Source of the DNA: Cunninghamella blakesleeana
Taxonomy: Eukaryota > Mucoromycota > Mucoromycetes > Mucorales > Cunninghamellaceae
Direction: 5' to 3'
Assembly (NCBI GenBank): GCA_017871115.1
Contig: JAFCIZ010000001.1
Coordinates: 3,205,501 to 3,269,500 of the forward strand
Length of the DNA stretch: 64,000 nucleotides
Position 1 is the first letter of the stretch. Each line of letters begins with the position of its first letter. The notes beneath the pieces were generated by a model. That model was given only the letters and a program-made list of their open reading frames with translations, did no database searches and was not told the DNA's origin. A program made the position numbers and the translations under genes. This document shows, in pieces, positions 15,289 to 61,917 of the stretch.

Positions 15289-18200
15289 ATGATAAAAGGA
15301 AGATGGATATTTCATTGGACTTTAATAACTTTTTACAGCTTTATTTTTATTTATGCACAACAAAATCCTAATTTATTACCAAGTTGTACTAAAAAACAAT
15401 ATACTTCTAAAAAACCTACTTTTGCTTTAATATCTTATGATTCATTTAGTCAAAAATTTAATGGTAATTCAAACATTGGTGCTTTGGATTCAGCTTCTCT
15501 TTTAGGTGTCAATCTATTAATTAATACTCGTTTTCAAAGTACTATCCATCAAATGGAAAGTGATATTTTAAATGCTATAGAAAAAGTAAGTTTATAAAAA
15601 AAGTTAAAACCCAGTTTTTTTTTCTCAACTTTAATTTTTATATTTTATTCTTTAGAATGTTGATGGTATTATTACTGCCATTCCTAATGAACAAATATAT
15701 AAAGCCGTAGAAATAGCTAAAAATAAAAGAATTCCTGTCATAGTATTCAGTGTTGGAGAATCGTATGCTTCTCAGCTTGGACTGACACGTGTATTGCAAC
15801 AAGAAGATAAACTAGGTAAAACCATAGTAGAACAATTAAAAAGTCGCGGTTTCAGTAAACCTTTAGCAATACATACAGCACTTAATAATGACATCTTGGA
15901 AATACAATCGAAAAGAACAATTATATCAAATTATTTAAACGATCCCACCTATCCTATTTTATTACAATTTGAAGATAATCAAGAAACGTTCAACACAATT
16001 TATAATGGTATACAAACTGGCAAATATGATTCTATTATCTCTATGGGAGGATATGTATGTACCCATCTTTTATTTTACTTTTCTATACATATATATATAT
16101 ATATATAACTTTTACTTATTATGTTTATTCTTACTATATATTATTTATATAGAAAACAACTGATATTGTTAGCAACCTCGTATTAAGACTTCGATCAACT
16201 TTACCAAATCCACAACGATTTGGAACCGTATTTATAGATCTAGGTGGTGACAATATGGCGTTATTAATTCAAAAATATCCTGAATCAACTGTTGCTATTA
16301 ATCAACTTCCTTATTATCAAACTGCTTTACCTGTATTTTATTTGTACTTAGAAGTATGTAAAATGAAAAAAATAATAATACAATACATAATAAATAAATA
16401 AATAAATAAATGAATCTATATATAAATAGTCTATGGATTAATTCAAACCGTACATTAAGAACTAATAATTATATTATATTACATTACATTATTATTAGAC
16501 AATTACAAGCCGTAGTGTTTATGGAAATCAGACAATTCCTACTGGCCCAATAGTAATCACAAATGAAACGTTACAAACTGGCCTTGGCTTTGATCATCAT
16601 AATGTATTTCCAAATTTAGTAGGTCATTCAAACGTTAGTGTTTTGATACCAAATACTCAAGGTGATACCTATGGTCGAAACATGGCGGTTGGGATTCAAC
16701 AGTTGGGAAAAAAAATTAGATGGGGTATAAATAATGTTATACAGGTATATAATTTTTATCATATAAATATAAATGGAAGAATAACCTTAATAAAATTGAC
16801 AATAGACAGTAATATATATTATCTATTTTTATTTTATTAATAGAAAGATTACGTTGATTTGCCACAACATGTCATTGATGGAATAAATTTATCTGTTCAC
16901 CAAAATATCAGTGGTATAATAGTTTTATCCAACAGTAATATAGTAGCAGAAACTGCAATCAATACCACGTCACAATCCAAAATTCCTTTGGTACTTATAA
17001 ATTCAATCAATGATAATGACTATAATCATATTGCACCGTAAGTGAATGATGATAAAAATATATATTTTCATAATGGCAATTAAAATTAAAATTTAAAAGG
17101 AAAAAAAAATTAATACTTCTTTAAATAATCATGTATACTTTTTTATACCTTTTTTTCAGTCATGTTTCAGCAGTAAATTATGATCTTCATTCTAGGGCAA
17201 AAATAATAGCAGATGAGATGGTTAAAAATAATATCAACAGGCCTGTTTGTATTTCAGAAAGATATTATTGGGACCAAAGCTATTTTTGTGATTATTTTTA
17301 TGATGAATTATCCAATCCACCCCCCAAAAATCAAGTGGTTCATTTGGTCGATATTACAAGGCAAAGTAATGTAGATAATGATATTGCATTATTTTTGAAT
17401 GGGCTGAAACAACAAAATTATGATGCAGAAGCTATCATTACTTTCTCGGAATATGCATTCAATTCTATAAATATGGTAATTATTAAATTAAATTATATAT
17501 ATATATATATATATATACGTATTTTTTTTTTTTTTTTTATAAAAAAAAAGGATATCGAGATGATAGATTACTTATTTACTATTATTTTTATTATTATTAT
17601 ATGTAGCGAATACTTCAAAATCTTACCTCCAATGATATTCACTTTTTTAGTTCACCTGAAATATTTAATCAAAAACAAGCTATAATTGACGGACGTATTG
17701 ATAAAGCATGGTAATAATATCAAAATATACGAGTATCTCTAAATTATATCAAAGTGTATAATGTTTTTTTATCCTAACTGATATTTTATTTTTCTTTTCA
17801 TTTTTTTTCTTTCAGGACATTAAATACATTCTCTGTTGGATTTATATCATTGCTTAATATAATCATCAATAAACACTTGCCGGAAGTACCTTGGAAACAT
17901 ATTAATACATCAGCAAGTGAAGTTGAATATATATGCCCGCCTGGAACTTTTTATACCATGTTGTCAACTGCTTCTTTTTGTTTGGATGATGAAAATGATG
18001 TCAAAGCATCTTTTCAATGCTCACCTTGTCCAGCAAATAGCTACAATGATAAACCAGATCGAACAGAATGTCAACCATGTCAGAATGGAACAATTGTGAA
18101 TGCTGATGCCACTAAATGTATTTCATGTTATGATCCACTAGCTAGCCATTCAGAATACTGTTCTAATTATATCGTGTCTCATGATAACAACAAAAAACAA

Positions 18201-18728
18201 TTGGCTTTATCTATTGCTTTACCTATTGCTTTGGTAATTTTACTCCTTATCATTGCCTTTATCCTTTGGAAATTGAGAAAACGGCGACGATACAAAAAAC
18301 AATCATTAGGTTCTGATAATGAAGATACCTGGCTATTATCGTATAATCATCTTATGTTTCCATCCATGCGTCATTTACCTTCTGATTATGAACAGACTCA
18401 AGAAAAAATAATACACCCCACTTCTGATACATCATCCACATCCATGTCATCATTATCGCCAGCTCGAGATAATAATAATAATAATATTAACAATAATAAC
18501 AATAATAGTAATAATAACTCTGGTTTACTGGGAAATAATATCGTTGATAATAATAATCAATTTCGCCCTTCTAATAATTATACCAACACTGGAACTCTAC
18601 AAGATTCTTTGATATCAACCCCCACCCATTGGGCTTTGCTCAAAAATGGAAAATCAAGTAAAATAAAGGATATAGGAAAAAATGAAAGGTAGAAATAATG
18701 AAAAATAGTTATATATATATAATACAAT

Positions 18729-18775
<47 letters not shown>

Positions 18776-20576
18776 AATTGTAATTTTATTTTATTTTTAT
18801 TTTTATTTTTTTCAATAACTATTATCCAGTGCATCACCAACAAATTCAAATATAGCCTTGCCTCTTATTAATCCTAATAGTTTGTATAAATCAGTGGGTC
18901 GATAGTAAGTAAATTTATGACTAAATTAAATAATAAAATAAGTAATGATAAACTAATTGATTGGTTTTTATTTTTTATTTTATTTTATTCTTTTTATAAT
19001 AACATATAGTAACAATTTATATGTTACTATAAAGCAAATTGGATTTAATCCTTTAAAACTGGATATGGAGTTAAAAAATGAAATTCAACTTTTAAAACGT
19101 GGTAGATGTCCAAATTTATCAGAGTTTATTGGAATTTGTATTGAGTCCCATGGTACCTATCTGGTGGAAGGTAAATTGCATATACAATAGTGATAATAAA
19201 AACTCTTTAAAATAATGGTAATAATAGGATGTAATTAACATTGTGGGGGGGGGTTTTTTTTTTTTATTATAACACAGAGTACTGTAGAAAAGGCTCGTTG
19301 GATAAAATATTAGCTAACAAAGACATTAACCTCACTTGGGTCTTCCGATTTTCATTGATGAATGATTTACTACAAGGGATGCAGTTTATTCATCGTTCAA
19401 AAATAAATACCCATGGGCTATTAACATCAGCAAGTTGCATGGTTACCTCAAGATGGGAATTAAAAATCTCTGATTATGGGTTAAGGAAAACACGTCAAAC
19501 TCAATATGAACCTTCAGTTATTTCAACTATTCAAAAACATCATGCACAAAATTTCATTATTATCCCTTCTGATGATGTTTTGTTATGGATGGCCCCTGAA
19601 TCAATCGTTTCAATATTTTCAAACCTATATATAACGGTCCCTTCTAAACAAGCAGATATTTACAGGTAAATTATTTTATTTTATTTTAATATTTAATATT
19701 TAATAGTTAATATTATAATTGTAGTTATTACTATTTAGGAAATGATTATATTAATATGATATTAATATATTATTATTATTTGTTTTATATTAGTATTGGT
19801 ATTATTATGAATGAAATTTTGACAAGGTCACTACCTTATAAAGAGCACACAACTGTTTATAATGACTATAAAACAATATATCAACGAATAAAAGAGGAAA
19901 AAATCACACCTGCACAAAATGATTCACCAGCTGATTATTACAGCCAAATCAATCGTCTTATTAGCTGGTGCTGGAATACTGAACCTGATAAACGCCCTTG
20001 CATTATTGATTTAAAGGTATACTAATTATTAAATTTAATAATAATAGTAATAGTAAGTATTTTTTTTTAATATCATATTTATATATATTTTATTTAATTA
20101 ATATAGAGCCAATTGCATACTATTGCTCCTTCTCTAATGGGTTCAGATTGTATGGTGGAAAATCTTGCTCTAATGGTAATTGTTTATATTTATTAATAGT
20201 GATATTCTTTTTAACTCATTTAATTATAATTCTCTCTTGCTTTTTGTTTTATTTATTTATTAAGCTTGAAAAATATGCAAACGATATGGAAGATTTAGTA
20301 TATAAACGAACATCAAATTTACTACAGAGAACAATAGAACTTGAAGAAGAACGTGCAAGGACGCAAACTTTATTAAAAGGTATTAATATAAATATATATT
20401 AAGAGGTTATGAGGAAAATTGAAAAACAAATCAAGTTACTAATTTAAATTTTATTATTTATATTCATAACCACGCTATTCATATTCTAGATCTAAAAGCT
20501 GCCAAAGAAAAAGCGGAAGCTGGTGCTAGAAGCAAACAAAACTTTCTGGCTAATATGTCTCATGGTAATATACTTT

Positions 20577-20627
<51 letters not shown>

Positions 20628-23414
20628 ACTAAGATGATGAAATCCTAATTTTTTTTTTATGAATATAAAGAGATCCGAACGCCTATGAATGCTGTTATTG
20701 GAATGTCTCATATTTTGATGGAAAGTGATTTACCACCTGAATTACATGATTGTGTTGAAACGATTGAATCTTCTGGCAATCATTTAATAGCCATTATAGA
20801 TGACATTTTGGATTATTCAAAAATAGAATCAGGAAAACTGACTTTAGAAAACAAGGAATTAGATTTGGTAAGTACTTCAACCCATTTTTTTTAATATATA
20901 ATCAAAAGAGAAAAAGTTAAAATAAAAAAATAAAAAAAATGAACAACACTAATTCATATATATTCATCTGTTTTTATTATCATTATTTTATATATATAGT
21001 CATTTGTCATTGAAAGTGCTATCAAACTAGTGGCTCCTAATTATTTAGCAAAAGGTATAGCTTTATGGTATACTTTTGATCAAAATATTCCGGTTAAACT
21101 TATAGGTGATGTGGTTCGGTTACGTCAAATAATACTAAATCTGTAAGTTAATATTATAATCATTTTATATTATTTTGTATTTTTTTTTTTTTGATCAGGT
21201 ATATGTATATGTATACTAATATTACTATATATTGTAAAATATTAATATAAATAATTTTATAATTATTTATTAGACTTTCTAATGCACTCAAGTTTACTCC
21301 TTCTGGTGGCCAAGTTAGTGTTCAAGTAAAAGAAGTAATACAAGATCAAGATTACATATCAAAAAAGAAATCGCTAGGCGCTGTAGATATTAAGGATTAT
21401 GTGCCTCTGCAAATTGCTATCAATGATACAGGTGTCGGAATACCAAAAGATAAAATCAATAAATTGTTTAAATCATTTTCACAAGTAGATGCATCAACAA
21501 CAAGAAATTTTGGTGGCACTGGTCTTGGATTGGCAATTTCACGTCAATTAACTCGCATGATGTATGGTGATATGGTACGTAAACTTCCTTAAAAAATAAA
21601 AATAAAATATTCCATCCATTTAACCACTCTAATGATTAATTTATTTTAATTTTTATAAATATATACATAATAGTGGGTAAATTCAGTTCATGGGGAAGGC
21701 TCAACCTTTACATTTAGAGTACTACTTGAAAAGCAAGATAACAGCCAAACCTATGGAGAGCAACATGAATTAAACGAAATAGTGAAGGGACTTGATGGTA
21801 TGGTAGTGATCGCTGAACAAAATCATGTATCAGTGATATGGAAGAATATTCTTGAATATTTAAACATCAAACACTTAAAAATCCTCACATTTGATCAAGC
21901 CAAAGATTACTTTAATAATCAGTTAAAGGGTGAAAAAATCCCAATACTTATTGTTGACGCGGATTATGCTGTAATTAAAGAAGTAGAACATGGAAAAAAC
22001 GACACTACCACAAGTCAGAATGTGATTATTTATCTTCGGAATCTTTATCCAGAATTATATAACATTCCAACTATATGCATTAATGATATTCGAAGTAAAC
22101 GTCAGTCTGCAAAATCTGACTCTCAGTCCGCTTTAGATTATAAACAATTTGATAATCCTTTAGCTATAGTTAGCCACAAAGAGATTTTGAAAGGGAATGA
22201 TGTTACTCCTATTAGTTTGGTAGAAGAACGAAATCCATTTGATTTACTTACAACCATACTTTATAAGCCATTAAAAAACTCTATTTTATTTACTACACTC
22301 CATCGAATAGTCGCTACATCCTGTAATACCAATACTTGTACATTAAACCCATCACCTTCAAAGCTAGATTCATACTATCACCAACAAAATATCGATAATA
22401 ATAATGATAATAGAAACTCACTAGACCCATGCTATTTCAATCATCATAATAACAACAATAATAATCGACTTTCATTGGACCCTTCCCTCTTTAATAAAAG
22501 AAATAATAAAATTCTTAATAATAGCAACCCTCTTCGATGCAATTCATCTGATGAAATCACTCATCAATCCAATCGATCCTCCTACCTATCATCTTTATCT
22601 GCTACAAGCACATTACCAAATTCACCATTAGAGGGTACGTTCTGCATAAAACCAACACCATCATCAGTTTCACTTACTAATTTAATAAAAGACAATGATA
22701 TCAATATACTTATAGTGGATGATAACCCTGTGAATCGCAAAGTATTAAAACGAATGCTCGATAAACTAGGCATGTCCTGTTGTATGGCTCAAGATGGACT
22801 AGAAGCTTATAACATGGTACAAAAAGCCTACAACGATGGAAAACCTTTTGGATTAATATTAATGGACATTTGGATGCCCAATATGAATGGATTTGAAGCC
22901 ACTAGTAGTATTCGTAAACTATTCCCAGATTCTGGTATAGAACCTTATATTATTGCATTAACAGCTTGCGTGACACCAGATGATCGTAGAAAGTGTAAAG
23001 AAGCAGGTATGTAAATTGATTTTATTTTATTTATTTATTAAAAAATATTTTATCATGATTGCTTTATTTATATTTATATAACAATTAATCCACTTCATTA
23101 AAATTTTATATATATTTTTGTATCTTATGATATATATAGGAATGAATGGGTATGTCAGTAAACCTGTTAGAAAACCAGAATTAATGGCGGCTATTAATGA
23201 ATTTAAACAGACTACACAAGTTAATTCACAAAACGATAATATACCAAATCAAAAAGATTCTATAGATACATCTCCTAAAAGAAATGAATATAAAGATATA
23301 ACCTCTCTAAAGAAAGAGCCAACTCTCGATATAACACCAGCACCGCCAACTGTAACAATAACAACTAACCTAACTAATAGAGGTAAAGACGACATAGACA
23401 GTCGTAGACCATAA
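15289..23414 (+). CDS. Receptor with PBP-like ectodomain, guanylyl-cyclase-receptor-type pseudokinase and hybrid histidine kinase output (20 exons)
   Basis: Exons start at 15289, 15656, 16153, 16499, 16844, 17160, 17607, 17816, 18830, 19010, 19278, 19794, 20107, 20265, 20490, 20671, 21000, 21274, 21674 and 23140; all phases close to about 1994 residues. In order: a signal peptide (1-24); two periplasmic-binding-protein-like domains (~35-610); a Cys-rich GCC2/GCC3-like module (626-690); one membrane helix (~714-738) followed by a basic stop-transfer; a low-complexity stretch; and a kinase-homology domain (~877-1165). That domain has VTIK lysine K910, [10 protein letters not shown] at 1001 in place of HRD, DYG at 1021 and MAPES. 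Next come a coiled linker (1183-1221, [16 protein letters not shown]), HisKA (FLANMSHEIRTPMN, H1245), HATPase ([25 protein letters not shown]), a degenerate receiver (~1497) and a canonical receiver (LIVDDN, phospho-acceptor D1857, K in VSKPV). Sensing of a secreted ligand with phosphorelay output is inferred. Confidence 0.9.
18730..18773 (+). repeat. Poly(A) tract of 44 in an intron of the receptor kinase gene
   Basis: An uninterrupted run of A lies in the intron between the juxtamembrane exon and the pseudokinase exons. It is not required for splicing and may be a microsatellite or the relic tail of a retroposed sequence. Confidence 0.9.
20579..20626 (+). repeat. Poly(A) tract of 48 in an intron of the receptor kinase gene
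   Basis: An uninterrupted run of A lies inside the intron that splits the histidine kinase H-box (MSH|EIRTP). It is the second such tract in the same gene. Confidence 0.9.
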
Positions 23415-24403: not shown

Positions 24404-25483
24404 TTATATAGTAGAATCCCTAGCATCATAGAAGGATTCTTCTCTTTCAGAATCCGTATCGTTTTCTCTATTAGGCGATTTTATCGAATCATCTATTGTT
24501 ATTAATGTATTTGTAAAGTCAAATAACGATAGGTGTTCACGACGATAATGGTGCTCAAAAGTAGTTGCATTTGCCCAGTTTCCCATGGTTATAATATCTT
24601 CTTTTGGAATTCCTGCTTGAAATGCTAAAGAAGAAGCAATAGATCTTAACGATACATTACGTTCAGTAGTAGATAACCTTAATAAATGACGAAGCCAGTT
24701 GTGAATAGTACGTGTAGCTATCGGTTTGTTTGGACAAATCGAATTTATAAATAACAGAGTAGCTGTGCAATTTGGACGTCTATCTTGATATACTTTATAA
24801 GTAATTACCGGACAAATAGATGGATTAGTGTGTGCTTTTATCGTGAAGGATTTAATAATTGATCTATTTTTCCTTCTTTCTTTAGGACAATGAACTTCTA
24901 AAGAAATACTAGTATTATCTGGTGATAAAGTTACTGAATGAAAAGGAATTCTATGAAGATCTGAAGTGCGGAAAAAACATGTAACTGCTAATAAGAAGGC
25001 TAATTTTGCTTGTAAGTTTGATAAAGAGATATTGTCATTATTTTGTTGTTTTAAATAATTAAAAGTGGGTTGTATATCAATTGTTGGTTTATGTGTTCTT
25101 ATAGGTGGTGCCAATCTTGCTAATGTACCAAAGAAATCATTTATTTCCTTATTTTGTTTTAAGATATTTTGATTAGGATGTAGATTTGAAACGGCAGAGC
25201 GTATTAATTGAAGTGTAGTATATGCATAATTATATTTAGTACGAATATCACTTAGAAAATTGATTAAATCAGTAGCATTAAATGATTCCATTGAGATATT
25301 ATTATCTGATGCCCATTGAATAAATAAATATTGACCCCTTCTATATGATTTATTGGTGTCATTATCTGTAGTATATCTATTAATAAGCAGGTTTTTTGCA
25401 TTATTATTTAATTTGGAGGTATTATATTTTGAACTGATAATTTCCATACGGCGAGTTTCCAATTCTTGTTTATCATAGGCCAT
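24404..25483 (-). CDS. DIRS tyrosine recombinase
   Basis: The recombinase occupies the C-terminal ~350 residues of a frame that is open from 27280 to 24404. The most plausible start is the ATG at 25483 in an ACCATGG context, which overlaps the end of the RT ORF by about 75 bases and gives 359 residues. An N-terminal SAM-like region (RYTTDNDTNKSYRRGQYLFIQW) precedes the catalytic domain. Key boxes are FFRTSDLHRI with the first Arg, SLRSIASSLAFQAGIP with the second, GNWANATTF and the final HHYRREH with the Tyr nucleophile. The usual His of HxxR reads Val (VSLR). The enzyme would integrate the circular DNA copy. After the stop comes an A-rich 3' stretch (T-rich on the plus strand). Confidence 0.88.
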   Translation of the reverse strand: MAYDKQELETRRMEIISSKYNTSKLNNNAKNLLINRYTTDNDTNKSYRRGQYLFIQWASDNNISMESFNATDLINFLSDIRTKYNYAYTTLQLIRSAVSNLHPNQNILKQNKEINDFFGTLARLAPPIRTHKPTIDIQPTFNYLKQQNNDNISLSNLQAKLAFLLAVTCFFRTSDLHRIPFHSVTLSPDNTSISLEVHCPKERRKNRSIIKSFTIKAHTNPSICPVITYKVYQDRRPNCTATLLFINSICPNKPIATRTIHNWLRHLLRLSTTERNVSLRSIASSLAFQAGIPKEDIITMGNWANATTFEHHYRREHLSLFDFTNTLITIDDSIKSPNRENDTDSEREESFYDARDSTI

Positions 25484-27330
25484 GGTGTCTCTGGTGTTGG
25501 TATTTCTATGCATGATTGATCTAGTATTATTGGTGGTAAGATCGATAAGGATTGGAGAGTCGGAAACCAAAGGGCTGATGTCCACCAAGGTGTTATCATT
25601 GTTGTTAGTTGTATCTTCTCTTGTATTAGTTTGTGGAGACAACGATTTATCAGATTCCAAGGAGGATTGATATAAGGATTGTGAAAGATTGTCCAAGGTA
25701 TCGTGAAGGCGTCTGTGAATAAGCTCCCCGGATCCGGTAGCCATGACACGTATCTTTTTAGCTGAGTTGTATGTCTGTCCGCAAAAAGGTCTATGTCGTT
25801 TGGACCCCAAGTTGATTGAATCTGTTGAAATATTTGTTTGTTGATCATCCATTGATTCTTTTGATAAGGTCTTCTTGATTCGTAGTCTGCTATCGTATTG
25901 TGTATCCCTTTCACATGGTTGGATTGGATTGTGATCCCCCGTTTCAGACACCATTTCCAAAGTGTTGTTGCTAAAGTCATCAGAGGTAAAGATCTCGTCC
26001 CCCCTTGTTTGTTCAGATATGACATCGATGTTGTATTGTCTGTCCGAATCAAAATCCTCATATTGCGTAAATGTGGAAAAGTTTTCAGGGAAAGAAATGC
26101 TGCCATTAATTCCCTCCAGTTGATAGACATCTTTGATTCCTGGTGATTCCAAAATCCATGAGCTGTCTGATGTTGATTGTTCTGGATAAGACTGCATCCC
26201 CAACCTGTATTGCTGGCGTCCACATAAATTGTCTGTTGAGGGGTCTGTGGTAGAAAGCTTCGACCATTCCATAATTTTAGATTGTTCATCCACCAGCGAA
26301 GTTCCTTCAAGCATGTATTCGGTAAAGGTAGTGGAGTGTCCCAATCTGTTGATGTCCTGACTGATTGATTCTTGAATCGTAGGAGATGTTGTGTATATAG
26401 GCGAGCTGGTATTAAAGCAAATGTCGCTGATTGAATCCTCATTGTTAAGCTGTGAATTACTCTTGCTGATCGAATTGGTTTCTTCAAAACTTGTTGAATT
26501 GAACGACGAAGATCCCGAATCTTCTTGCCAGGTAGTTGAGCTGTCATTTTGCTTGTATCCAATAAGAAGCCGAGGTGTTCCATTGATCTGGTTGGAATCA
26601 GATTGGATTTCTTGTAATTTATCAACCATCCCAGTGTTTGAAGCTTTTGAATAAGAAGTTGAGTATGAAGGATTGATTGCTGGTAAGTATCTGCTATTAT
26701 AATCCAATCGTCTAGATAAGCACTTATTCTTATCTGTTTTGTTCTTGCCCATTGTAATATTGGTTTGGTGATCTTTGTGAATAACCAAGGGACTAGAGAA
26801 AGGCCAAATGGTGTTGTGCAAAATTGATATGTTTTTCCTTCCCAGCAAAAACGAAGGTAAGGACGGGAATTCATATGAACAGGTATATGTAGGAAGGCAT
26901 CGGAAAGGTCTATTGATGTTAACCAATTGTTCTTTTTGATCATCCTTGTAACTTCTTGAAGTGTTTCCATTTTGAAATGTGGGGTGAAAATGTATTGGTT
27001 TAATTGTTTTAGATTGAATACTGGTCGATGACCTCCGTTTTTCTTGGGGATCACAAACATGTTGCTGTAAAAACCTGGTGTCATTGGTTGTAGTACAGGT
27101 TCGATTGCGCATTTCTTTAAAAGTGCATCTATTTCTTGTTGTAATAAGATCTTTTGTTGATGATTGTAAGGAATTATTATTGATGGTGTTGTACGTAATG
27201 GTGGTGGTGTTATGAATGGAATTTGGTAGCCGTGAAGAATTATGTTTAATAGCCAATTGTTTGTTGAAATTGTTGTCCATTCTGAATAGAACTGGCTTAG
27301 ACGACCTCCTACAATTAATATAGAAGGATC
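25408..27330 (-). CDS. DIRS reverse transcriptase - RNase H - methyltransferase-like polyprotein
   Basis: The first ATG of this frame is at 27084, but recognisable RT-family sequence (GGRLSQFYSEW) starts upstream. The frame is open back into the end of the gag-like ORF, so a frameshift or other non-ATG route is likely; the 27330 limit is approximate. Domains in order: reverse transcriptase (GGHRPVFNLKQLNQYI, SIDLSDAFLHIP, TPFGLSLVPWLFTK, catalytic AYLDDW); RNase H (IYVDASNTGWG, INWRELMA, IRTDNTT); and a C-terminal methyltransferase-like module (DIDLFADRHTTQLKRYVSW, INPPWNLI) typical of DIRS elements. The whole ORF is overlapped by a second open frame on the same strand that continues into the recombinase. 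Confidence 0.9.
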   Translation of the reverse strand, partial: DPSILIVGGRLSQFYSEWTTISTNNWLLNIILHGYQIPFITPPPLRTTPSIIIPYNHQQKILLQQEIDALLKKCAIEPVLQPMTPGFYSNMFVIPKKNGGHRPVFNLKQLNQYIFTPHFKMETLQEVTRMIKKNNWLTSIDLSDAFLHIPVHMNSRPYLRFCWEGKTYQFCTTPFGLSLVPWLFTKITKPILQWARTKQIRISAYLDDWIIIADTYQQSILHTQLLIQKLQTLGWLINYKKSNLIPTRSMEHLGFLLDTSKMTAQLPGKKIRDLRRSIQQVLKKPIRSARVIHSLTMRIQSATFALIPARLYTQHLLRFKNQSVRTSTDWDTPLPLPNTCLKELRWWMNNLKLWNGRSFLPQTPQQTIYVDASNTGWGCSLIQNNQHQTAHGFWNHQESKMSINWRELMAAFLSLKTFPHLRNMRILIRTDNTTSMSYLNKQGGTRSLPLMTLATTLWKWCLKRGITIQSNHVKGIHNTIADYESRRPYQKNQWMINKQIFQQIQSTWGPNDIDLFADRHTTQLKRYVSWLPDPGSLFTDAFTIPWTIFHNPYINPPWNLINRCLHKLIQEKIQLTTMITPWWTSALWFPTLQSLSILPPIILDQSCIEIPTPETPWPMINKNWKLAVWKLSVQNIIPPN

Positions 27331-28322
27331 TATTGTCTTTGAGGACGGAAAGGGTTGTAGCCGTTTCTGTTTGATTGGTTTTTGTTGTTGTTTTGATTGG
27401 TGCTGCTGTTGTTGCTGTTGTTGCTGTTGTTGCTGCTGTTGTTGAAATTGAAGTTGTTTCTGTTGGAATTGAATTGACCGCCCTGCTGAGAGGACGGACC
27501 TGATCGAAAAAACTGACCTAATGAAGAATGATCATATCTAGTGTTAGTATTGTCGCTATTATTTACATTAAAATTATTACGACGTCTATTTGTAAATCTA
27601 TTGGCATGGCGTATCGCTTGCTTGTTTGCTGCCTGTTGTATAATGGCGGATTGAAAATCAGTTGGCGACATAGTGTAATTATCTTGACCAGTATTTGTTG
27701 TGGCATAGAATGATGGATTAATAGATTGTAATGCAATATTATTACGTAAGTTATTAATATTTGAGGATAAATTAATTAATAATTCACGGCAGTCATTAAG
27801 AATATTAAGGTAGCGTTGGGAATTATCATTATCTATATCTTCACTTATTTCATGACTCAAAACATCAAGAGGACGAACAACTCCTGATAGGAGGTATTGA
27901 AGACGTTTAAGGGACATATCTTGTCGAGATTGTGATTTATGCATTTTTCTAGCCGCCTCTGGTAGTGTATCAGGGGGTTGATATTGTAAAGCATCAATCA
28001 TAGGATATTTTTCGATAATACGTTTACGCTTCTCATCTGAAATCATTGGTGAAGTGAATAATGATTTATCTAATGAGAGGAAATCAACTAAAGCAGGGTG
28101 AGGGTTCCAAGTATAAGATGGCCTGATATCCAATGAGTGTAATGCAGAAAGTTGATCCATAGGTTCGGTATTATCTGTATTATCTTCTGATTCTATTGTG
28201 GTTTGATTTTGATTAAGATTTTGTTCTAACTGCGATAGACGTTGTTGCATGTTGATAAATTGATCATATGGTATTTGAATACTATTATTATTATTTGTAA
28301 TATTATTGTTAGTTGAACTCAT
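27330..28322 (-). CDS. DIRS gag-like ORF1
   Basis: About 330 residues start at the ATG at 28320-28322 (MSSTNNN). An earlier ATG at 28391 lies inside the TA-repeat of the terminal repeat and encodes only Ile/Tyr/Phe, so it is not preferred. The protein has a coiled stretch (FINMQQRLSQLEQNL), a conserved-looking core (ILNDCRELLINLSSNINNL) and a basic, Asn-rich tail (FTNRRRNNFNVNN and a long (Asn/Ser)n run) that could bind nucleic acid. There is no zinc knuckle. It sits directly upstream of and overlapping the RT frame, the usual gag position. The Asn/Ser-coding run is a CAACAG-type microsatellite. Confidence 0.8.
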   Translation of the reverse strand: MSSTNNNITNNNNSIQIPYDQFINMQQRLSQLEQNLNQNQTTIESEDNTDNTEPMDQLSALHSLDIRPSYTWNPHPALVDFLSLDKSLFTSPMISDEKRKRIIEKYPMIDALQYQPPDTLPEAARKMHKSQSRQDMSLKRLQYLLSGVVRPLDVLSHEISEDIDNDNSQRYLNILNDCRELLINLSSNINNLRNNIALQSINPSFYATTNTGQDNYTMSPTDFQSAIIQQAANKQAIRHANRFTNRRRNNFNVNNSDNTNTRYDHSSLGQFFRSGPSSQQGGQFNSNRNNFNFNNSSNNSNNSNNSSTNQNNNKNQSNRNGYNPFRPQRQ

Positions 28323-28354
28323 TTTTTGAGGTGCTGACCCGAGCGAAAAAAGAA

Positions 28355-28477
28355 GATAAAAAAAAAAAAAATATATATATATATATATCATTTTAAATTT
28401 TAATTTATATATCTTAATTTTCGCTGACTTTAAATAATAAAGAAGAATTAATCAATCATATTTCTTATTTTGTATTC
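28355..28477 (-). repeat. DIRS inverted terminal repeat, copy at the element's 5' side
   Basis: It is the reverse complement of 24008-24131. It holds the leader upstream of the gag-like ORF (ATG at 28322), so it probably includes the element promoter (family knowledge, not visible directly). Confidence 0.9.
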
Positions 28478-33123: not shown

Positions 33124-33864
33124 TTATTTAGCCAAGCTAATCAAAATATCAAATAATTCATCAGGTTTTGAAAGGAAAGGTGAGTGAGAAGTGTCCATTT
33201 CGATAGCATTATCAATATCATCTTTATACATTAATTCTTGAATAGAGGGATTGATTGTTTTATCTTGTAATGTAGTGATATAGTATTTATTGACCTTATT
33301 TTTAATGATATCTGAATTGATCTGTGGAATTTCAAACATGGGAGTTCTGCTTTGTAGTCTTAGTTTTGATTTAGCAAATAGAATATCTGCTTCTTCACAA
33401 TCATGGTAAAATGCTTCTTTGGCATTTTCAGGATCGAGAATGAAATATTTTAAATCCTCTGTAGGACAAAAATCCTTTACCATTGATAGATCAGGGAGAT
33501 AATATCGTGGCGGATCAGGGAAATAAAATGCAGCTATATATACGACACAATGAATTTTTTCAGGGATTTTTTCTGCTACCAGCGTAGCAGTTAAGCCGCC
33601 CAAACTATGTGCCACCAGAATCACCTTTTCATCTTGACCATCATTGTTTTTAAGATTATTTTCAATAACAGATAAAGTACAATTCATGTAATTTGCGATA
33701 GTAATATCTTCATAAGGGGTTTGGTAATCCTCCCCACTTCCTGGTAAATCGAAGGCAATTGCTCTGTATTGACTCTTTTCAAAAAGTGGTAACAGTTTTC
33801 TTTCAAAAGCCCATTTACCATGCATAGCGCCATGAATAAACACGAATAAATACTTTTCAGCCAT
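33124..33864 (-). CDS. Alpha/beta hydrolase, methylesterase/hydroxynitrile-lyase-like group
   Basis: This is an intronless gene of 246 residues. The oxyanion motif FVFIHGAMHGKWAFERKLLP opens the protein, AIAFDLPGSGED follows, and the nucleophile elbow is VAHSLGGLTA (Ser ~90). The acid is probably the Asp in TTLQDKTINPS and the base the His in DTSHSPFLSKPDELF near the C-terminus, so the Ser-Asp-His triad is complete. The compact cap and DTSHSPFLSKP end resemble the plant methylesterase/salicylate-binding and fungal AB_hydrolase_6 group. The substrate cannot be told from sequence. There is no signal peptide, so it is probably cytosolic. Confidence 0.85.
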   Translation of the reverse strand: MAEKYLFVFIHGAMHGKWAFERKLLPLFEKSQYRAIAFDLPGSGEDYQTPYEDITIANYMNCTLSVIENNLKNNDGQDEKVILVAHSLGGLTATLVAEKIPEKIHCVVYIAAFYFPDPPRYYLPDLSMVKDFCPTEDLKYFILDPENAKEAFYHDCEEADILFAKSKLRLQSRTPMFEIPQINSDIIKNKVNKYYITTLQDKTINPSIQELMYKDDIDNAIEMDTSHSPFLSKPDELFDILISLAK

Positions 33865-34785
33865 TAAACTGATAAATTTTTAATAATATATTTTGGAAGC
33901 TGGCTTAGTATATAATAAAACATGTATATGTATATATATGAATAATAATAATAAAAATAGAATATTAATATATTGTATAGAATATAAAGCATTTATATAA
34001 TTCTTTAATTTTTTAATTTTTTTAACCTATATTATATTTACTAAGTTTAAATGGAATGAATAAGTAGAAATTGTCGTTAAAAAATATAAATGATTTAGAA
34101 AGTAAAATAAATGAATTAAAGATAAAAAGATAAGTGAAAAATGGGGAACTCCTTGTTTATTAATTATATAAATGAGGCTAAAAAAGTGTGATCATTTTGC
34201 GTAGCATAAATTTTAAGAAATTCGTATTTATACTCGAAAGGAAATGTTTCATATTCTGTATATGTTGTTGATGACACTGACTTAAGCCTTGTCAATGATA
34301 TTTTATTTAAAAAATCACTAAATGTTGTTGAAAAGAAAAATTATATCTGGATCCAATTATGTTTGAAAAAAGATGTAGTTTTTTAATATTAGTCTTTTTA
34401 TTAATGGCGTTTGTTTTTTGTTTGATAACAAAAAAAAGAAAAAGAAAAAAAACTGATAAAATAAAAGGCTAACTATCAATTTTTTTTTTTTTTTTTCAAA
34501 TCGAATAAACGTAATGATGATATGTTATGTTTCTTCTACATCGCTACTTGATGGTATTTTAACTAAGCTAATATACTCAAAATTATGTATTTATTGCATT
34601 GAAATATTTTAAAAAAATTTTTTTTTATTCACGGTATTATAATATAAAGTTGTTGCTACTGCTATTGTATTAATAGTATTACTTCTATAATTAAAGGTAT
34701 TTCATTTTTTGAATAAACTGAGGCGCTATATTTTTTTAATAAAATGAAAACTAAACTAATTATTAACTTTAGAACTTTGTTGAGC

Positions 34786-35009: not shown

Positions 35010-37067
35010 ATGAATCGTTTAATTACTAGTACTGCTCAACGTGCTTCTCGTTTTAACCGTTCTTCTACTGGCGTATTAACCCGTCTTTATTCTTCTCATA
35101 AGGAAATTAAGTTTGGTGTTGATGGTCGCGCAAGTTTATTAAAAGGTGTTGATATTTTAGCAAAAGCTGTCTCTGTTACTCTTGGTCCTAAGGTATAATA
35201 AATATATATATAAAGTGATTTATAATAATAACAATAATAATAATAAGGATAAGGATAAGAATAAGGATAATAATAAAATAATAATAGTAATGTAAGAATA
35301 TGTGTTTGACAAGTAGTGATTGTGTAAATCGATTTACTAAATGTTATAATTATTTATTTATTGATTTCACTTACTAAATAACAAAAGGGTCGTAACGTAT
35401 TAATTGATCAACCTTATGGCTCTCCCAAGATTACTAAGGATGGTGTTACTGTAGCAAAGTCTATTACTTTAGAAGATAAGTTTGAAAATTTAGGTGCTAG
35501 GTAAAACAATTAACTATTTTTATTTTATTTTATTAAAAAAAAAAAACGAAACATGTCAAAAAATGATGGATAAAATGCTAATAATAGGTATTTTTAATAT
35601 TTTCAATACTAAAATAGACTTGTTCAAGATGTTGCCAGCAAAACCAACGAAATCGCCGGTGATGGTACTACCACAGCCACCGTTTTAGCTCGTGCCATTT
35701 TCACTGAAGGTGTTAAGAATGTCGCTGCCGGTTGTAACCCAATGGATCTCCGTCGTGGATCTCAATTAGCTGTTGAAAAAGTCATTGAATACTTAAAGAC
35801 CAATACCAAAGGTATTACTACTTCCGCTGAAATTGCTCAAGTTGCAACTATTTCTGCTAATGGAGATAAGCACGTTGGTAATATGATTGCTCAAGCCATG
35901 GAACGTGTTGGTAAAGAAGGTGTGATCACTGTAAAAGCTGGTAAAACCATTGACGATGAATTGGAAGTCACTGAAGGTATGCGTTTTGATCGTGGATTCA
36001 CCTCTCCTTATTTCATCACCGATACCAAAACTCAAAAAGTAGAATTTGAAAAACCATTAATCTTATTATCTGAAAAGAAGATTTCTCTTTTAACCGATAT
36101 CTTACCTGCTATGGAAGCTGCTGCTACTCAACGTCGTCCTCTTTTAATTATTGCTGAAGATGTAGATGGAGAAGCTCTTGCTGCTTGTATCTTAAATAAA
36201 CTCCGTGGTCAATTACAAGTAGCCTGTGTCAAGGCTCCTGGTTTTGGTGATAACCGTAAATCCATTTTAGGTGATATTGGTATTTTAACCAACAGTACTG
36301 TCTTTAACGATGAATTGGATCTTAAATTAGAAAAGGCTACTCCCGACTTATTCGGTACAACAGGCTCTGTTTCCATTACCAAGGAAGATACAATTATTTT
36401 GAATGGTGCTGGTTCCAAAGACGTGATCACCCAACGCTGTGAACAAATTCGTGGTCTCATAAATGAACCCACTACTTCTGATTATGAAAAAGAAAAATTA
36501 CAAGAACGTTTAGCTAAACTTTCTGGTGGTGTTGCTGTTATCAAGGTAGGAGGTACTTCTGAAGTAGAAGTAGGTGAAAAGAAGGATCGTTTTGATGATG
36601 CATTATGTGCTACCCGTGCTGCTGTAGAAGAAGGTATTGTTCCTGGTGGTGGTGTTGCTTTATTAAAGGCTGCTAAATCTTTAGAATCATTAAAGGGAGA
36701 TAACTTTGATCAACAATTAGGTATTAATATCATTCGTCAAGCCATCCAACGCCCTTGCCGTACCATTGTTGATAATGCTGGTGGTGAAGGTTCTGTCGTT
36801 GCTGGTAAACTTTTAGATGAGCATGTGGATAATCCTAACTGGGGTTATGATGCTTCTTGCAATGAATATACCGATATGATCGAACGAGGTATCATTGATC
36901 CTACCAAGGTCGTTCGTACCGCTCTTTTAGACGCTTCTGGTGTAGCTTCACTTTTATCCACTACCGAAGCTATGATTGTTGATGCTCCTGCTCCTGCTCA
37001 ACCTGCTGGTGGTATGCCTGGTATGGGTGGCATGGGTGGCATGGGTGGAATGGGTGGAATGATGTAA
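35010..37067 (+). CDS. HSP60: Mitochondrial chaperonin HSP60 (3 exons)
   Basis: Exons are 35010-35192, 35388-35500 and 35618-37067, giving about 581 residues. Residues 1-~32 form an Arg/Ser-rich mitochondrial presequence ([20 protein letters not shown], ending ...LYSSHKE). The mature chaperonin has the nucleotide-binding [65 protein letters not shown] and the Gly-Met-rich tail [16 protein letters not shown]. It folds imported proteins in the mitochondrial matrix together with HSP10. Codon use is more GC-ended than in neighbouring genes (many GGT/GCT/ACC/ATC codons), as expected for a highly expressed gene. The first intron falls inside the conserved LGPKGRNV motif. Confidence 0.98.
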
Positions 37068-56543: not shown

Positions 56544-59500
56544 CTAAAAATTATTATTACTATTCTTGAGAATACAATAATATTCAAGAATACTTTTGTA
56601 TATATTGTTAGTAATAAATGGACGTTGATATATAATGACCTGCCATATAATTTTCCATATTTGCATGATTATACAGCTAACAACGACCATAGTTTCTTGA
56701 TTTATCCTTGAGGAATTTGCACCTAGGTTAAATATAAGCTCATACAGATCATGTTCATCGATAGAAATGTTAATTTCATTGGAAGTTAATACTGAAGTCC
56801 ATAATCTTTTAATTCTTTGACATTGGAAAAACAAATGTGAAAGATTACCTTTATCTATATTACAGAAAGGACATTGTTCAGTGCGATCTTTATTATATCT
56901 AGCAATTGATGATGGTGAGTTAAGTTTTTTGTTGATTAACCTGTACCAAATTGTTCTTGCTTCAGGATATGTTTTGATGCTCCAAAATTTTTTCCAAGAT
57001 GATGATGATATATATTCAATAGGTGAAGGATGTAGAGTCGTGTAGATTATATTATACCTTAATGTCTTAGATGAATATTTTTTCCATGAATCCATCAGCT
57101 GAAATTTGTGTAAAAAGTTGGTATCATTAATAATATTAGCATCTTCATTATTTATCTTGATCATTGATGAAAAGGATGATGTTAGTAGTATTGTCCTTTT
57201 TTCAATGTCTTTATGTAATCTTTTATTAAGACCAGGAAATGTTAGATTATCTGTTGTTTGTTTCTTCCTTATATTACCTATATCCTTATCAAACACGAAG
57301 AAGTCTGAGACAGTTTTCCTATAGTGTTGTTTAGAATATAACCAATGGTTAGGAGGTATGAATGCCATAATTTTGACAATTGGTAAATATAATGCAGTAG
57401 ATGCTGAGCATTTTATATTTTTTCCAATGAAGCCAAAGTGATCGATAGTATCGCATATACCTGACAACATGTAGGGGAACTTATATAAATGATTTAAACG
57501 TAAACTTGGGAATAGTAAAGGTAACCAAATAGGGTCCGATCTAGCAGCCATTTTTAATTGATGAAGTAAGATAGCCGAACACATAGAATGGTTGTTTACA
57601 GATTCTATTATTGATTTAATCCATCTTTGTTTCAGTACCATAGATTGAGCCAAAGGGTCTAGTACACCAAGGCCACCTTTATTAATAGGGAGGCAGAGGG
57701 AAGAGTAAGAAGCTTTAGGAGAAAACCGGTGCCATATAAAATTGTATATTATCGATCTTAACTTGTAAAAGAAAGATTTGTTTGGATTAAATAGACGAAG
57801 GTGATACCAAATCATAGATAATATTAACGTATTTAAAATAGTAACCCGGCCACGTAGTGATAGGTTTCTTTGTTTATATATGTTACATTTAATTTCAATA
57901 TTATATAGCAACTTCTTTTGATAATACTTCCGTTGTGCATTTGTCATAATCATAGGAAAGCCCAGGTATGATAAAGGGATATCAAACTGTTGATCACACC
58001 ATTGAGATATATTATAATCATTAAGAGCATTCACCCATACTAAATCCTTTTTACCAGAAAGAGGAAAAGCAATTGTTTTATCCACATTAACCTTTGCGTT
58101 TGATACTTTCATATAAGATGTTAGATGTGATTGTAGTGAGTTAAGATCATTTTGATTATCTATGAGAACACATATATCATCTGCGTAAGCTAAAAGTTTA
58201 ATTTGTTGTACTGTATCATTATTATGTATTTTGTACCCACTAAAAGTTGAGTCCTGTAAAATGTGACATAATAGAGGTTCCAAGACAAAATTAAATAATA
58301 TAGGTGATAGAGGATCTCCCTGACGTAATCCACGTTGTTGAATGACTGGTGATGTAAAATATCCATTGACATTTATTTTGACTTGATTACCAAAAAATAA
58401 CCCATGTATACATTCTACAACTAAAGGAGGAAAGCCAAATTTCAAGAGTGTTTTTTTAAGATAAACATCATAAACCCTATCATAAGCCTTTTGCTGATCC
58501 AGAAGAAGACCAATACCATTGTATTTAGATTGTTGAGCTTGTTCCATAATTAATTTTAGTGTTAAATCATTTTCAGCAATAAAGCGTTTAGGGAGAAATC
58601 CCGATTGAAAAGGATTAGTGAGTTTATTAGCAATAATCTTTATCCTATCGTTCAGTATTCTTGTAAATATTTTAGCATCGCAATTAATAAGAGAGATTGG
58701 ACGCCAATTAGATAGTGAGGTAAGATCACCTTTCTTTGGTAGTAAACGTACCCGAATGTCTTGCCATGATTTAGGAAAATTCTGATGAGATAATGCTTCA
58801 TTAAAGATTGACACCATCAAAGTTTTGATTTTATCATATTGAAATATGAACGATAGCATAGGGTAACCAAGTCCATCAGATCCCGGACTACTATTAGCAG
58901 GTAGTCTAGACGCATGGTATGTAATATCTTCAAAGGTTATTGCAGTAGTTAATGATTCTTGTTGAAATAAATTAAGAGTGGGAAGATCAACCGAGTTTAA
59001 ATATGTATCAATATCAAGTTCATCCACCATGTCACTATCATAAAGTTGTTGGTAATATTGATGAGTTATATTTAACATCTGATCATGATTGTTTCCTTTT
59101 ATATTATCACTATCTATATCAGGAGTATTATTCAAATTTTCAATGTGTTGTTGAATAGAACGTCGTTGGTGAATTTTTTTAAGATATTTTGGTGATTTTT
59201 CCCCCTTTTCACGCCAATTAGCACCCGATCTTAGAAAAGCGATCTCAGCCATTTCTGCTTGTAAGTGACCAATTTGTTCATGATAAAAAGGTAAACGTTG
59301 AAGTCTGATAGCCAAAGGAGGTTTACTGCGTAGGAAAGCATTTCGTTTCTTCTGTAGAAATTTTAAAAGCTTGGTTCTCCAGTTAATGTATTGTCGGCCA
59401 AACTTTTGAGAAAATTTCTTAATGTTAATCTTGATCAAATCCCATATTTCCTGAGGTGATTTTTTTTCATATTCAGTAGATGTTAAGTATTTGTCGATTA

Positions 59501-60311
59501 TTTGGTGTAATTTATTTTGATAATCTTTATCCTTTAAGAAGAGAGGATTTGCTTTCCATAAACCAGGTCCACTTGGTGTAGATACATGTTCCATTTGGAT
59601 TTTTACATTTAGAGAGTCATGATCCGTCCAATCATTGTTAATTTCATCAATAGCAAATGAAGTTATGTTATTTGCATAAGAGTGTTTACTGACAAAAATA
59701 TAATCGATGGTAGAGTATGATGTATCAGATCTTCTAAAGGTAGGAATGTTTTGGTGACCATTTGAAGAAAAACAGTTGTAGAAGTGTTCCTCTAAAAAAG
59801 ATAACCAGTCGCCGTCAGAATTGTTTAATATATAAGATCGATTATAGGAGTAGTTAAAGTCGCCCATAATGATCATATGATTAAAGTCAATACTTAGGTC
59901 TTGTTGATGTAGTAAAGAATATAGCTTCTTGAAGAAAGTCTTACGCAGAGCTATCTTCGCTGGAGCATAAATTACTAGTATATAGAAAGGAGTGTATATT
60001 TGTTGAGGGTGTGTTACTTGGCATAATATGGCCCGTTCTTCTTGAGGAAAAAGATTGGGAGATAATTGGTAATGATTGGAGAAGGATATAAGTCCACAAT
60101 ATTGTGTCCATAAACATTGCTGGGCTTGAAATTGATTAGTTATTCTATTAATGTTGGAATCGTTAATGTGAGTTTCTTGTAAGGCGAGGATAGATGAGTT
60201 TAAAAGACGAAGGTATCTGATGAAGCTTTTTTGAGTTTTTGATTTACCCGTTTTAATTAAACTATTACAGTTTAAAGAAAATAGGTTTAAACTATTATGT
60301 TGTTTAATCAT
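56544..60311 (-). CDS. LINE ORF2: AP-endonuclease and reverse transcriptase
   Basis: 1255 residues. The N-terminal apurinic-like endonuclease has LFSLNCNSL, ILALQETH, IIMGDFNYSY, STIDYIFVS and WTDHDSL, so the catalytic Asn, Glu, Asp and His positions are present. The central reverse transcriptase has SSPGSDGLGYPML, NWRPISLINCDAKIFTRIL, QSGFLPKRF, LLLDQQKAYDRV, QRGLRQGDPLSPILFNFVLE and the catalytic LLAYADDICV. The C-terminus carries a zinc-binding zf-RVT-type motif, CPFC...HLFFQCQRIKRLW. There is no RNase H. The protein would nick the target and prime reverse transcription from the 3' tail. Its ATG (60309-60311) overlaps the ORF1 stop as TAATG. Confidence 0.95.
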   Translation of the reverse strand: MIKQHNSLNLFSLNCNSLIKTGKSKTQKSFIRYLRLLNSSILALQETHINDSNINRITNQFQAQQCLWTQYCGLISFSNHYQLSPNLFPQEERAILCQVTHPQQIYTPFYILVIYAPAKIALRKTFFKKLYSLLHQQDLSIDFNHMIIMGDFNYSYNRSYILNNSDGDWLSFLEEHFYNCFSSNGHQNIPTFRRSDTSYSTIDYIFVSKHSYANNITSFAIDEINNDWTDHDSLNVKIQMEHVSTPSGPGLWKANPLFLKDKDYQNKLHQIIDKYLTSTEYEKKSPQEIWDLIKINIKKFSQKFGRQYINWRTKLLKFLQKKRNAFLRSKPPLAIRLQRLPFYHEQIGHLQAEMAEIAFLRSGANWREKGEKSPKYLKKIHQRRSIQQHIENLNNTPDIDSDNIKGNNHDQMLNITHQYYQQLYDSDMVDELDIDTYLNSVDLPTLNLFQQESLTTAITFEDITYHASRLPANSSPGSDGLGYPMLSFIFQYDKIKTLMVSIFNEALSHQNFPKSWQDIRVRLLPKKGDLTSLSNWRPISLINCDAKIFTRILNDRIKIIANKLTNPFQSGFLPKRFIAENDLTLKLIMEQAQQSKYNGIGLLLDQQKAYDRVYDVYLKKTLLKFGFPPLVVECIHGLFFGNQVKINVNGYFTSPVIQQRGLRQGDPLSPILFNFVLEPLLCHILQDSTFSGYKIHNNDTVQQIKLLAYADDICVLIDNQNDLNSLQSHLTSYMKVSNAKVNVDKTIAFPLSGKKDLVWVNALNDYNISQWCDQQFDIPLSYLGFPMIMTNAQRKYYQKKLLYNIEIKCNIYKQRNLSLRGRVTILNTLILSMIWYHLRLFNPNKSFFYKLRSIIYNFIWHRFSPKASYSSLCLPINKGGLGVLDPLAQSMVLKQRWIKSIIESVNNHSMCSAILLHQLKMAARSDPIWLPLLFPSLRLNHLYKFPYMLSGICDTIDHFGFIGKNIKCSASTALYLPIVKIMAFIPPNHWLYSKQHYRKTVSDFFVFDKDIGNIRKKQTTDNLTFPGLNKRLHKDIEKRTILLTSSFSSMIKINNEDANIINDTNFLHKFQLMDSWKKYSSKTLRYNIIYTTLHPSPIEYISSSSWKKFWSIKTYPEARTIWYRLINKKLNSPSSIARYNKDRTEQCPFCNIDKGNLSHLFFQCQRIKRLWTSVLTSNEINISIDEHDLYELIFNLGANSSRINQETMVVVSCIIMQIWKIIWQVIIYQRPFITNNIYKSILEYYCILKNSNNNF

Positions 60312-61882: not shown

Positions 61883-61887
61883 CTGTG

Positions 61888-61900
61888 AAGAAAAAGGATT
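61888..61900 (+). repeat. Candidate LINE target-site duplication, 5' copy
   Basis: Identical to 56313-56325; it lies immediately upstream of the proposed LINE 5' end. Confidence 0.55.
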
Positions 61901-61917
61901 GTCAAAATCAATTCAAA

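Follow-up and report, generated by a model that had tools for sequence, protein, structure and literature searches.

A predicted receptor hybrid histidine kinase family of early-diverging fungi with the kinase-homology domain and signalling helix of animal receptor guanylyl cyclases

The window analysed here, a whole stretch of 64,000 nucleotides from the fungus Cunninghamella blakesleeana (assembly GCA_017871115.1, contig JAFCIZ010000001.1, positions 3,205,501 to 3,269,500 of the forward strand), carries at 15289-23414 on its plus strand a gene whose product is probably a single-pass receptor hybrid histidine kinase, one of a family conserved in early-diverging fungi, in which a pseudokinase and a helix of the type found in animal receptor guanylyl cyclases (RGCs) would relay a ligand signal to a phosphorelay. 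At the level of sequence, this reading is carried by the predicted architecture, by a homology of the kinase-homology domain (KHD) and its linker that is specific to animal RGCs, by intact histidine kinase and receiver motifs, by conservation among relatives, and by an HPt gene in the same genome. The receptor belongs with the hybrid histidine kinases, but no description of its architecture was found in the literature searched, and it is not an RGC because it has no cyclase and its ectodomain is different.

The 20 exons of the gene, separated by 19 introns that are all GT..AG, join to give a continuous 1994-residue frame whose only stop is terminal. The predicted protein consists, in this order, of a probable signal peptide, two sugar-binding-protein-like domains, a Cys-rich stalk, one membrane helix, the KHD, the signalling helix, HisKA, HATPase, a degenerate receiver and an intact receiver (Table 1), with Pfam matches to Peripla_BP_4 (1.5e-11), PK_Tyr_Ser-Thr (902-1162, 2.1e-29), HisKA (1236-1300), HATPase_c (1347-1477) and Response_reg (1804-1923). 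Every splice junction sits in sequence alignable with one of two relatives: P0001, from C. blakesleeana (1046 of 1552 aligned residues identical to the window protein), aligns around junctions 5-19 apart from a 1-residue gap close to junction 12, and Chlamydoabsidia P0004 aligns ungapped around junctions 1-4, in a region that P0001 is without. The junction between exons 8 and 9 is the least certain, being aligned through in P0001 alone, since P0004 is gapped at exons 8-10. The introns that follow exons 8 and 15 contain long poly-A tracts (about 18729-18773 and 20579-20626). With a single frame and junctions backed by relatives, the claim of an earlier note on this DNA that one gene is involved is borne out as a prediction.

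Searches provided 46 relatives in all, 36 of them from the kinase-linker region, 7 from a Piromyces query and 3 from the ectodomain. Named relatives belong exclusively to Mucorales, Mortierellomycotina and Piromyces finnis (Neocallimastigomycota), and P0034 is 88% identical to the P. finnis region. An identity of 79% in the KHD region would by itself point to a mucoralean host near Cunninghamella. According to the Pfam listing, a kinase domain and HisKA occur together in 36 of 36 relatives, 21 of which also show a periplasmic-binding-protein (PBP) family and HATPase_c. The family is widespread and no peculiarity of the window's genome. A paralogue was located in that genome at C1:6152500-6162000, with 46% identity over one matched KHD exon.

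No cyclase was detected by Pfam in the window protein, and PF00211 is listed for none of the 36 relatives; thus, the C-terminal class III cyclase domain of RGCs is missing. Nonetheless, at least three members are publicly named guanylate cyclase with no cyclase listed (P0017, also named RGC or RGC protein kinase; P0146; P0148), names that probably derive from the KHD, whereas others carry the public name histidine kinase. A genome search for class III cyclases (PF00211) gave two places, both on other contigs, for which reason a cyclase gene split off nearby was rejected, and output of cyclic GMP from the receptor gene is not indicated. Genome searches also gave one HPt place and 15 receiver places, one of which we take to read like Skn7; all these counts, including that of the cyclases, are lower bounds. 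A phosphorelay is available in this genome.

By both phmmer and profile, the best solved match of the KHD is natriuretic peptide receptor 1 (NPR1). Using the window KHD with its linker, phmmer scored NPR1 at 129.4 bits, GC-C at 72 and MLKL at 68.6, and without the linker NPR1 at 108.7 bits, MLKL at 67.9, GC-C at 66 and RIPK2 at about 61. A profile built from six fungal KHDs gave 207.8 bits for NPR1, 144.9 for GC-C and 101.1 for RIPK1, the best protein outside the RGCs, other kinases scoring less. With the Piromyces member as query, the matches listed (120 of 248) comprised 18 fungal members and 102 kinase-plus-cyclase proteins, 89 of them named, all animal, and 13 without a name; the best animal match among those listed showed 38% identity over 94% of the region.

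Trees were inferred on the kinase part alone, one quickly (65 rows) and two carefully (62 and 32 rows). The two larger ones held 32 of the 44 fungal and 28 of the 102 RGC rows, with GC-C in the 65-row tree, and the smallest held 13 fungal and 14 RGC rows together with GC-C, RIPK1, MLKL and two kinases of the window's genome. Fungal KHDs form one clade in all of them (support 100 with 65 rows, 100/100 with 62 and 98/100 with 32), and fungal and animal KHDs are jointly separated from the other kinases (99, 98/99 and 96/98, respectively). The stem of the fungal clade is long, about 1.0 change per column in the 65- and 32-row trees. Thus, phmmer, profile and trees agree in assigning the domain to the RGC type, as the earlier note had proposed, and in none of the three trees did it fall with unrelated Ser/Thr kinases. 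Of the two outcomes that the note named as refuting its reading, separate genes and such a placement, neither was encountered at the level of sequence.

The likeness to animal RGCs continues into the linker. The 16-residue stretch that the earlier note had read as a dimerising linker is present from residue 1183, and the linker motif was recovered from all 44 fungal and 98 of the 102 RGC proteins; together with the alignment to animal RGC linkers, this upholds that claim and indicates that the dimerisation linker, or signalling helix, of RGCs is present. In an ungapped comparison of the Piromyces linker with animals, identity is 0.42 through the residues RT and 0.44 in the following 17 residues, and it then falls to 0.165, 0.071 and 0.016 per successive five-residue block, at the animal cyclase start, with chance-level blips of up to 0.26 past the breakpoint. 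An LP.SVA-like motif, marking entry into the cyclase, lies 19 residues on in 91 of the 102 animal-type proteins (11 were not measured). The homology therefore spans the KHD and the linker and fades where the animal cyclase begins, most clearly in Piromyces. Linkers of Mucoromycota, of which three members were compared, need one seven-residue skip, which raises the identity of the window protein after RT from 0.16 to 0.33, the highest among skips of 1-14, and does likewise in the two other members; the linkers of the window protein and its Mucoromycota relatives thus hold one extra heptad relative to those of animal RGCs.

The distance from RT to the phosphoacceptor His is 48 residues in 43 of the 46 proteins measured; Piromyces and P0034 have 62, and a single protein has 65. 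The linker motif is absent from one of the 47 proteins checked for this spacing. A difference of two heptads (48 versus 62) fits with a helix whose register is important. In the model of the homologue P0008, a single helix (residues 320-408, model confidence about 52-70) runs from the KHD via the linker past His 390 into HisKA. PMC1592074 describes the signalling helix as common to histidine kinases and RGCs, reports that its deletion abolishes Sln1p kinase activity, and finds it after a kinase domain only in animal RGCs. Since the helix also occurs in histidine kinases, the linker alone is not diagnostic, and it is the KHD that is.

Within the KHD of the window protein, the VTIK Lys (Lys 910) and DYG (1021-1023) are present and HRD is degenerate, reading HG at 1001-1002, just as the earlier note had described; APE is present too. 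The HRD Asp is missing in 36 of 36 relatives. Other positions were assessed in an alignment of 29 of the 46 relatives, from which shortened models (P0003, P0017 and P0027 among them) and some close repeats had been excluded: the VAIK Lys is kept in 26 (two gaps, one Thr) and the DFG Asp in 19 (nine Gly, one Asn), and all 29 conserve the His of HisKA, the residues of the HATPase G1 and G2 motifs and, in the receiver, the Asp pair, the phospho-Asp and the Lys. Considering the loss of the HRD Asp and the full conservation of the two-component residues, the KHD is read as a pseudokinase and the two-component part as intact. With HisKA, HATPase_c and a receiver that all retain their catalytic residues, the window protein has the motifs expected of a hybrid histidine kinase, and its autophosphorylation and phosphotransfer are putative.

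The earlier note had spoken of receivers in the plural. One is intact, and the other is degenerate: Pfam found no Response_reg match between HATPase_c and the intact receiver, and in the corresponding region of the P0008 model (about 667-835) strands alternate with helices, with confidence high to about 760 and low at 768-811. The signal peptide claimed in that note is plausible by eye, although its hydropathy stays low (Table 1).

The ectodomain is of PBP type, in agreement with the earlier note, but not of the ANF type of RGCs. Its first domain is nearest to bacterial sugar-binding proteins, by fold and by weak sequence similarity, and its Peripla_BP_4 family and fold place it among sugar-binding PBPs of type I. 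Peripla_BP_4 was found in the window protein and in four of five relatives scanned, the fifth (P0035) being without a PBP family, and ANF_receptor (PF01094) was absent from all six and is listed for none of the 36 relatives. A second PBP-like domain is suggested by strands and helices that alternate at about 366-651 of the P0146 model, and the stalk gave weak matches to NCD3G (0.00096) and Ephrin_rec_like (0.025), both below Pfam cut-offs; the ectodomain thus probably holds two PBP folds and a Cys-rich stalk. Because it is of Peripla_BP_4 type, the "chassis" of animal RGCs invoked in the earlier note is an apt description for the KHD and linker only. Compared with bacterial CUT2 or ribose-type sugar-binding proteins, including XylFII (solved with LytSN), the first ectodomain shares the fold and weak sequence similarity, whereas the fungal domains stand in tandem on a single-pass receptor; the putative ligand would most likely be a small sugar-like molecule. 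No other output was seen on the same ectodomain among 12 matches (query counted), a search of limited sensitivity in which P0146 stops inside the KHD. Searching the genome itself with Peripla_BP_4 returned only exon 2 of the receptor gene, below cut-off, and missed the paralogue, which shows that search to be insensitive.

Table 1. Parts of the predicted receptor, with window coordinates
Part	Position	Strand	Basis or remark
Likely signal peptide, residues 1-23	15289..15357	+	Start of exon 1; hydrophobic by eye, no 19-residue hydropathy window >1.6
First PBP-like domain, residues about 43-335, exons 1-4	15415..16606	+	
Second PBP-like domain, residues about 342-622, exons 4-8	16625..17924	+	Homologue model P0146; boundary approximate
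Cys-rich stalk, residues 626-701, 9 Cys	17934..18161	+	Cys positions
Single transmembrane helix, residues about 714-740	18198..18278	+	One strong hydrophobic segment at about 712-742, hydropathy up to 3.15
KHD, residues about 894-1170, exons 9-13	18879..20139	+	Lys910 and DYG retained; HRD without its Asp, reading HGLLTSASC
Signalling-helix linker, residues about 1174-1220, exons 13-14	20149..20378	+	Aligned with animal RGC linker
HisKA, phosphoacceptor His1245 (20561-20563), exons 15-16	20534..20834	+	Pfam HisKA 3.7e-21
HATPase_c, residues 1347-1477, exons 17-19	21105..21727	+	Pfam 2.4e-26
Degenerate receiver-like domain, residues about 1501-1672	21797..22312	+	No Response_reg match; homologue model P0008
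Intact C-terminal receiver, residues 1804-1923, phosphoacceptor Asp1857 (22865-22867), exons 19-20	22706..23198	+	Response_reg 6.7e-26

Other readings of these data were weighed. Over-prediction might have fused a gene for a PBP receptor with a neighbouring histidine kinase gene, given that the exon 8-9 intron combines its poly-A tract with a GTAGAA donor and that models of relatives are partly short, P0146 ending and P0008 and P0033 beginning within the KHD. Nonetheless, the kinase domain and HisKA share one predicted protein in all 36 relatives, which makes a chance joining of neighbouring genes very unlikely, the 21 relatives mentioned above extend from PBP through HATPase, the alignment with P0001 passes through the exon 8-9 junction, and the open frames of the paralogue follow the same order of parts by eye. 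The relatives' predicted proteins and the alignment across junctions led us to reject a two-gene artefact, which we regard as extremely improbable. We also hold it very improbable that the KHD is an active protein kinase providing the receptor with a dual output: Lys910 and DYG of the window protein, and the presence of APE, would suit such an enzyme, but the DFG Asp is lost in 10 of 29 relatives, the usual Gly-rich loop is not seen by eye, and the absence of the HRD Asp in all 36 relatives was decisive for its rejection.

Several observations weigh against kinship with RGCs. In the linker-free phmmer search GC-C scores no better than MLKL; outgroups are just four, two and four in the 65-, 62- and 32-row trees, and long-branched; approximately unbiased (AU) tests on the 32-row tree do not reject a grouping of fungal KHDs with MLKL alone (p-AU 0.123); and, although Foldseek set GC-A ahead of every other eukaryotic-kinase fold in its list, a geometry-only comparison favours RIPK2, BRAF and BTK, with GC-A not among the best 50 rows, so that fold comparison was dropped as proof of this kinship. 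Such scores, groupings and geometries would be expected of a general TKL-type pseudokinase that is RGC-like by convergence, the likeness of its linker being due to common histidine-kinase signalling helices, since those with the ERT signature are found in Sln1-type histidine kinases (PMC1592074). This seems improbable to us, considering that (i) the linker-free KHD still scores 41 bits better with NPR1 than with MLKL, the next family, (ii) the groupings of fungal KHDs with RIPK1 (p-AU 0.0037) and with RIPK1 and MLKL (0.012) are both rejected, and (iii) conservation extends to the linker stretch that precedes RT and is not part of the shared ERT signature. Horizontal transfer of the KHD-linker module from an animal to fungi, followed by fusion to a fungal histidine kinase, appears unlikely. 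In its favour, the named matches that were listed come from animals and three lineages of early-diverging fungi alone, and none of the three trees recovers animal RGC KHDs as one clade; yet a single animal clade is not rejected where tested (p-AU 0.175, 62 rows), and the fungal KHDs stand as one clade (100/100) on their long stem, outside any particular animal group.

Under our preferred reading, that of a receptor hybrid histidine kinase with an RGC-type transducer, a ligand, likely small and sugar-like, would bind the tandem PBP ectodomain and alter how the subunits of a dimer are seated relative to each other across the membrane. In the cytosol, the KHD, a pseudokinase without the catalytic Asp, would gate or tune this change and transmit it to the signalling helix, which, running on into helix 1 of the histidine kinase, would turn or shift the HisKA bundle and bring the change to the phosphoacceptor His; phosphate would then pass to the C-terminal receiver, to an HPt protein and to a response regulator. 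From this arrangement we infer what class of ligand is bound, that the receptor dimerises, that the KHD binds nucleotide, which way the signal runs and where it goes downstream. The gating role is proposed because the KHD of RGCs, devoid of kinase activity, acts as a negative regulatory element according to PMC1435932. By analogy with GC-C, described in PMC10400071 as an Hsp90-Cdc37 client through its pseudokinase, fungal KHDs may also be clients of Hsp90-Cdc37. The passage of a signal from ectodomain through pseudokinase and linker to a phosphorelay, as put forward in the earlier note, is thus supported as an architecture, but allosteric transmission along it is conjectural.

Animal RGCs (NPR1/GC-A, Gyc76C, Gyc32E, retGC and GC-C) resemble the fungal receptor in having a PBP-superfamily ectodomain, a single membrane helix, a KHD that has lost the HRD Asp, and a signalling-helix linker of matching sequence. 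On the contrary, the fungal receptor has a histidine kinase and receivers in place of the cyclase, a tandem ectodomain of Peripla_BP_4 type with a Cys-rich stalk and, in Mucoromycota, the longer linker. With Sln1-like and other fungal hybrid histidine kinases it shares HisKA, HATPase_c, a C-terminal receiver with all catalytic residues and a signalling helix before HisKA, to which it adds the RGC-type KHD between membrane and kinase, the PBP ectodomain and the degenerate receiver. Group X hybrid histidine kinases, which have a Ser/Thr kinase at the N terminus and a GAF domain before HisKA, likewise combine a protein-kinase-like domain and a histidine kinase in one protein; no GAF domain was matched by Pfam in the window protein at E up to 1, which sets it apart from that group.

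The earlier note knew of no described fungal sensor with this architecture. No description was found in the literature searched, with one survey and Figure 2 of PMC5285503, a hybrid-kinase compilation, outside its reach, but the gene models themselves are already public. PMC5285503 mentions unprecedented membrane hybrid kinases for early-diverging fungi, and its Figure 2, dealing with hybrid histidine kinases of these fungi, Mortierella elongata included, may contain a member of the family.

Elsewhere in the window, long overlapping open frames occupy 24404-28451 on the minus strand; two of them were scanned without a Pfam match, and their C-terminal part looks to us like the tyrosine recombinase of a DIRS or crypton type element. 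A LINE-type element lies at 56544-61912 (minus strand), a single frame of which holds endonuclease, reverse transcriptase and zf-RVT, with a zf-CCHC frame upstream. An alpha/beta hydrolase frame (33124-33879, minus strand) and a TCP-1/cpn60 chaperonin frame (35613-37067, plus strand) are also present.

The family accounts for the guanylate cyclase names on some public records. In Glomeromycotina, PMC8778642 reports "guanylate cyclase family" proteins in large numbers that are left unexplained, and KHD proteins lacking a cyclase may be among them. The receptor family also has a bearing on the statement, in PMC6733946, that fungi have no receptor-kinase-like architectures beyond hybrid histidine kinases, and on the origin of animal RGCs. 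A 2006 survey placed the rise of animal RGCs after the split from protists, with no fungal guanylyl cyclase then reported (PMC1435932), and a fungal rhodopsin-guanylyl cyclase fusion has been known since 2014 (PMC4046227). A regulatory core of animal RGCs is here conserved ahead of a quite different enzyme, and whether KHD and linker can transduce signals in general, with no need for the cyclase, becomes a testable question. Tentatively, and with the odds against it, the KHD and signalling helix might be an ancestral opisthokont transducer that first drove a histidine kinase, with animals, which lack histidine kinases, retaining the chassis and placing a cyclase at the helix end, while fungi such as the present ones kept the older output; if so, a two-component receptor would be the ancestor of natriuretic peptide receptors and of retinal cyclases.

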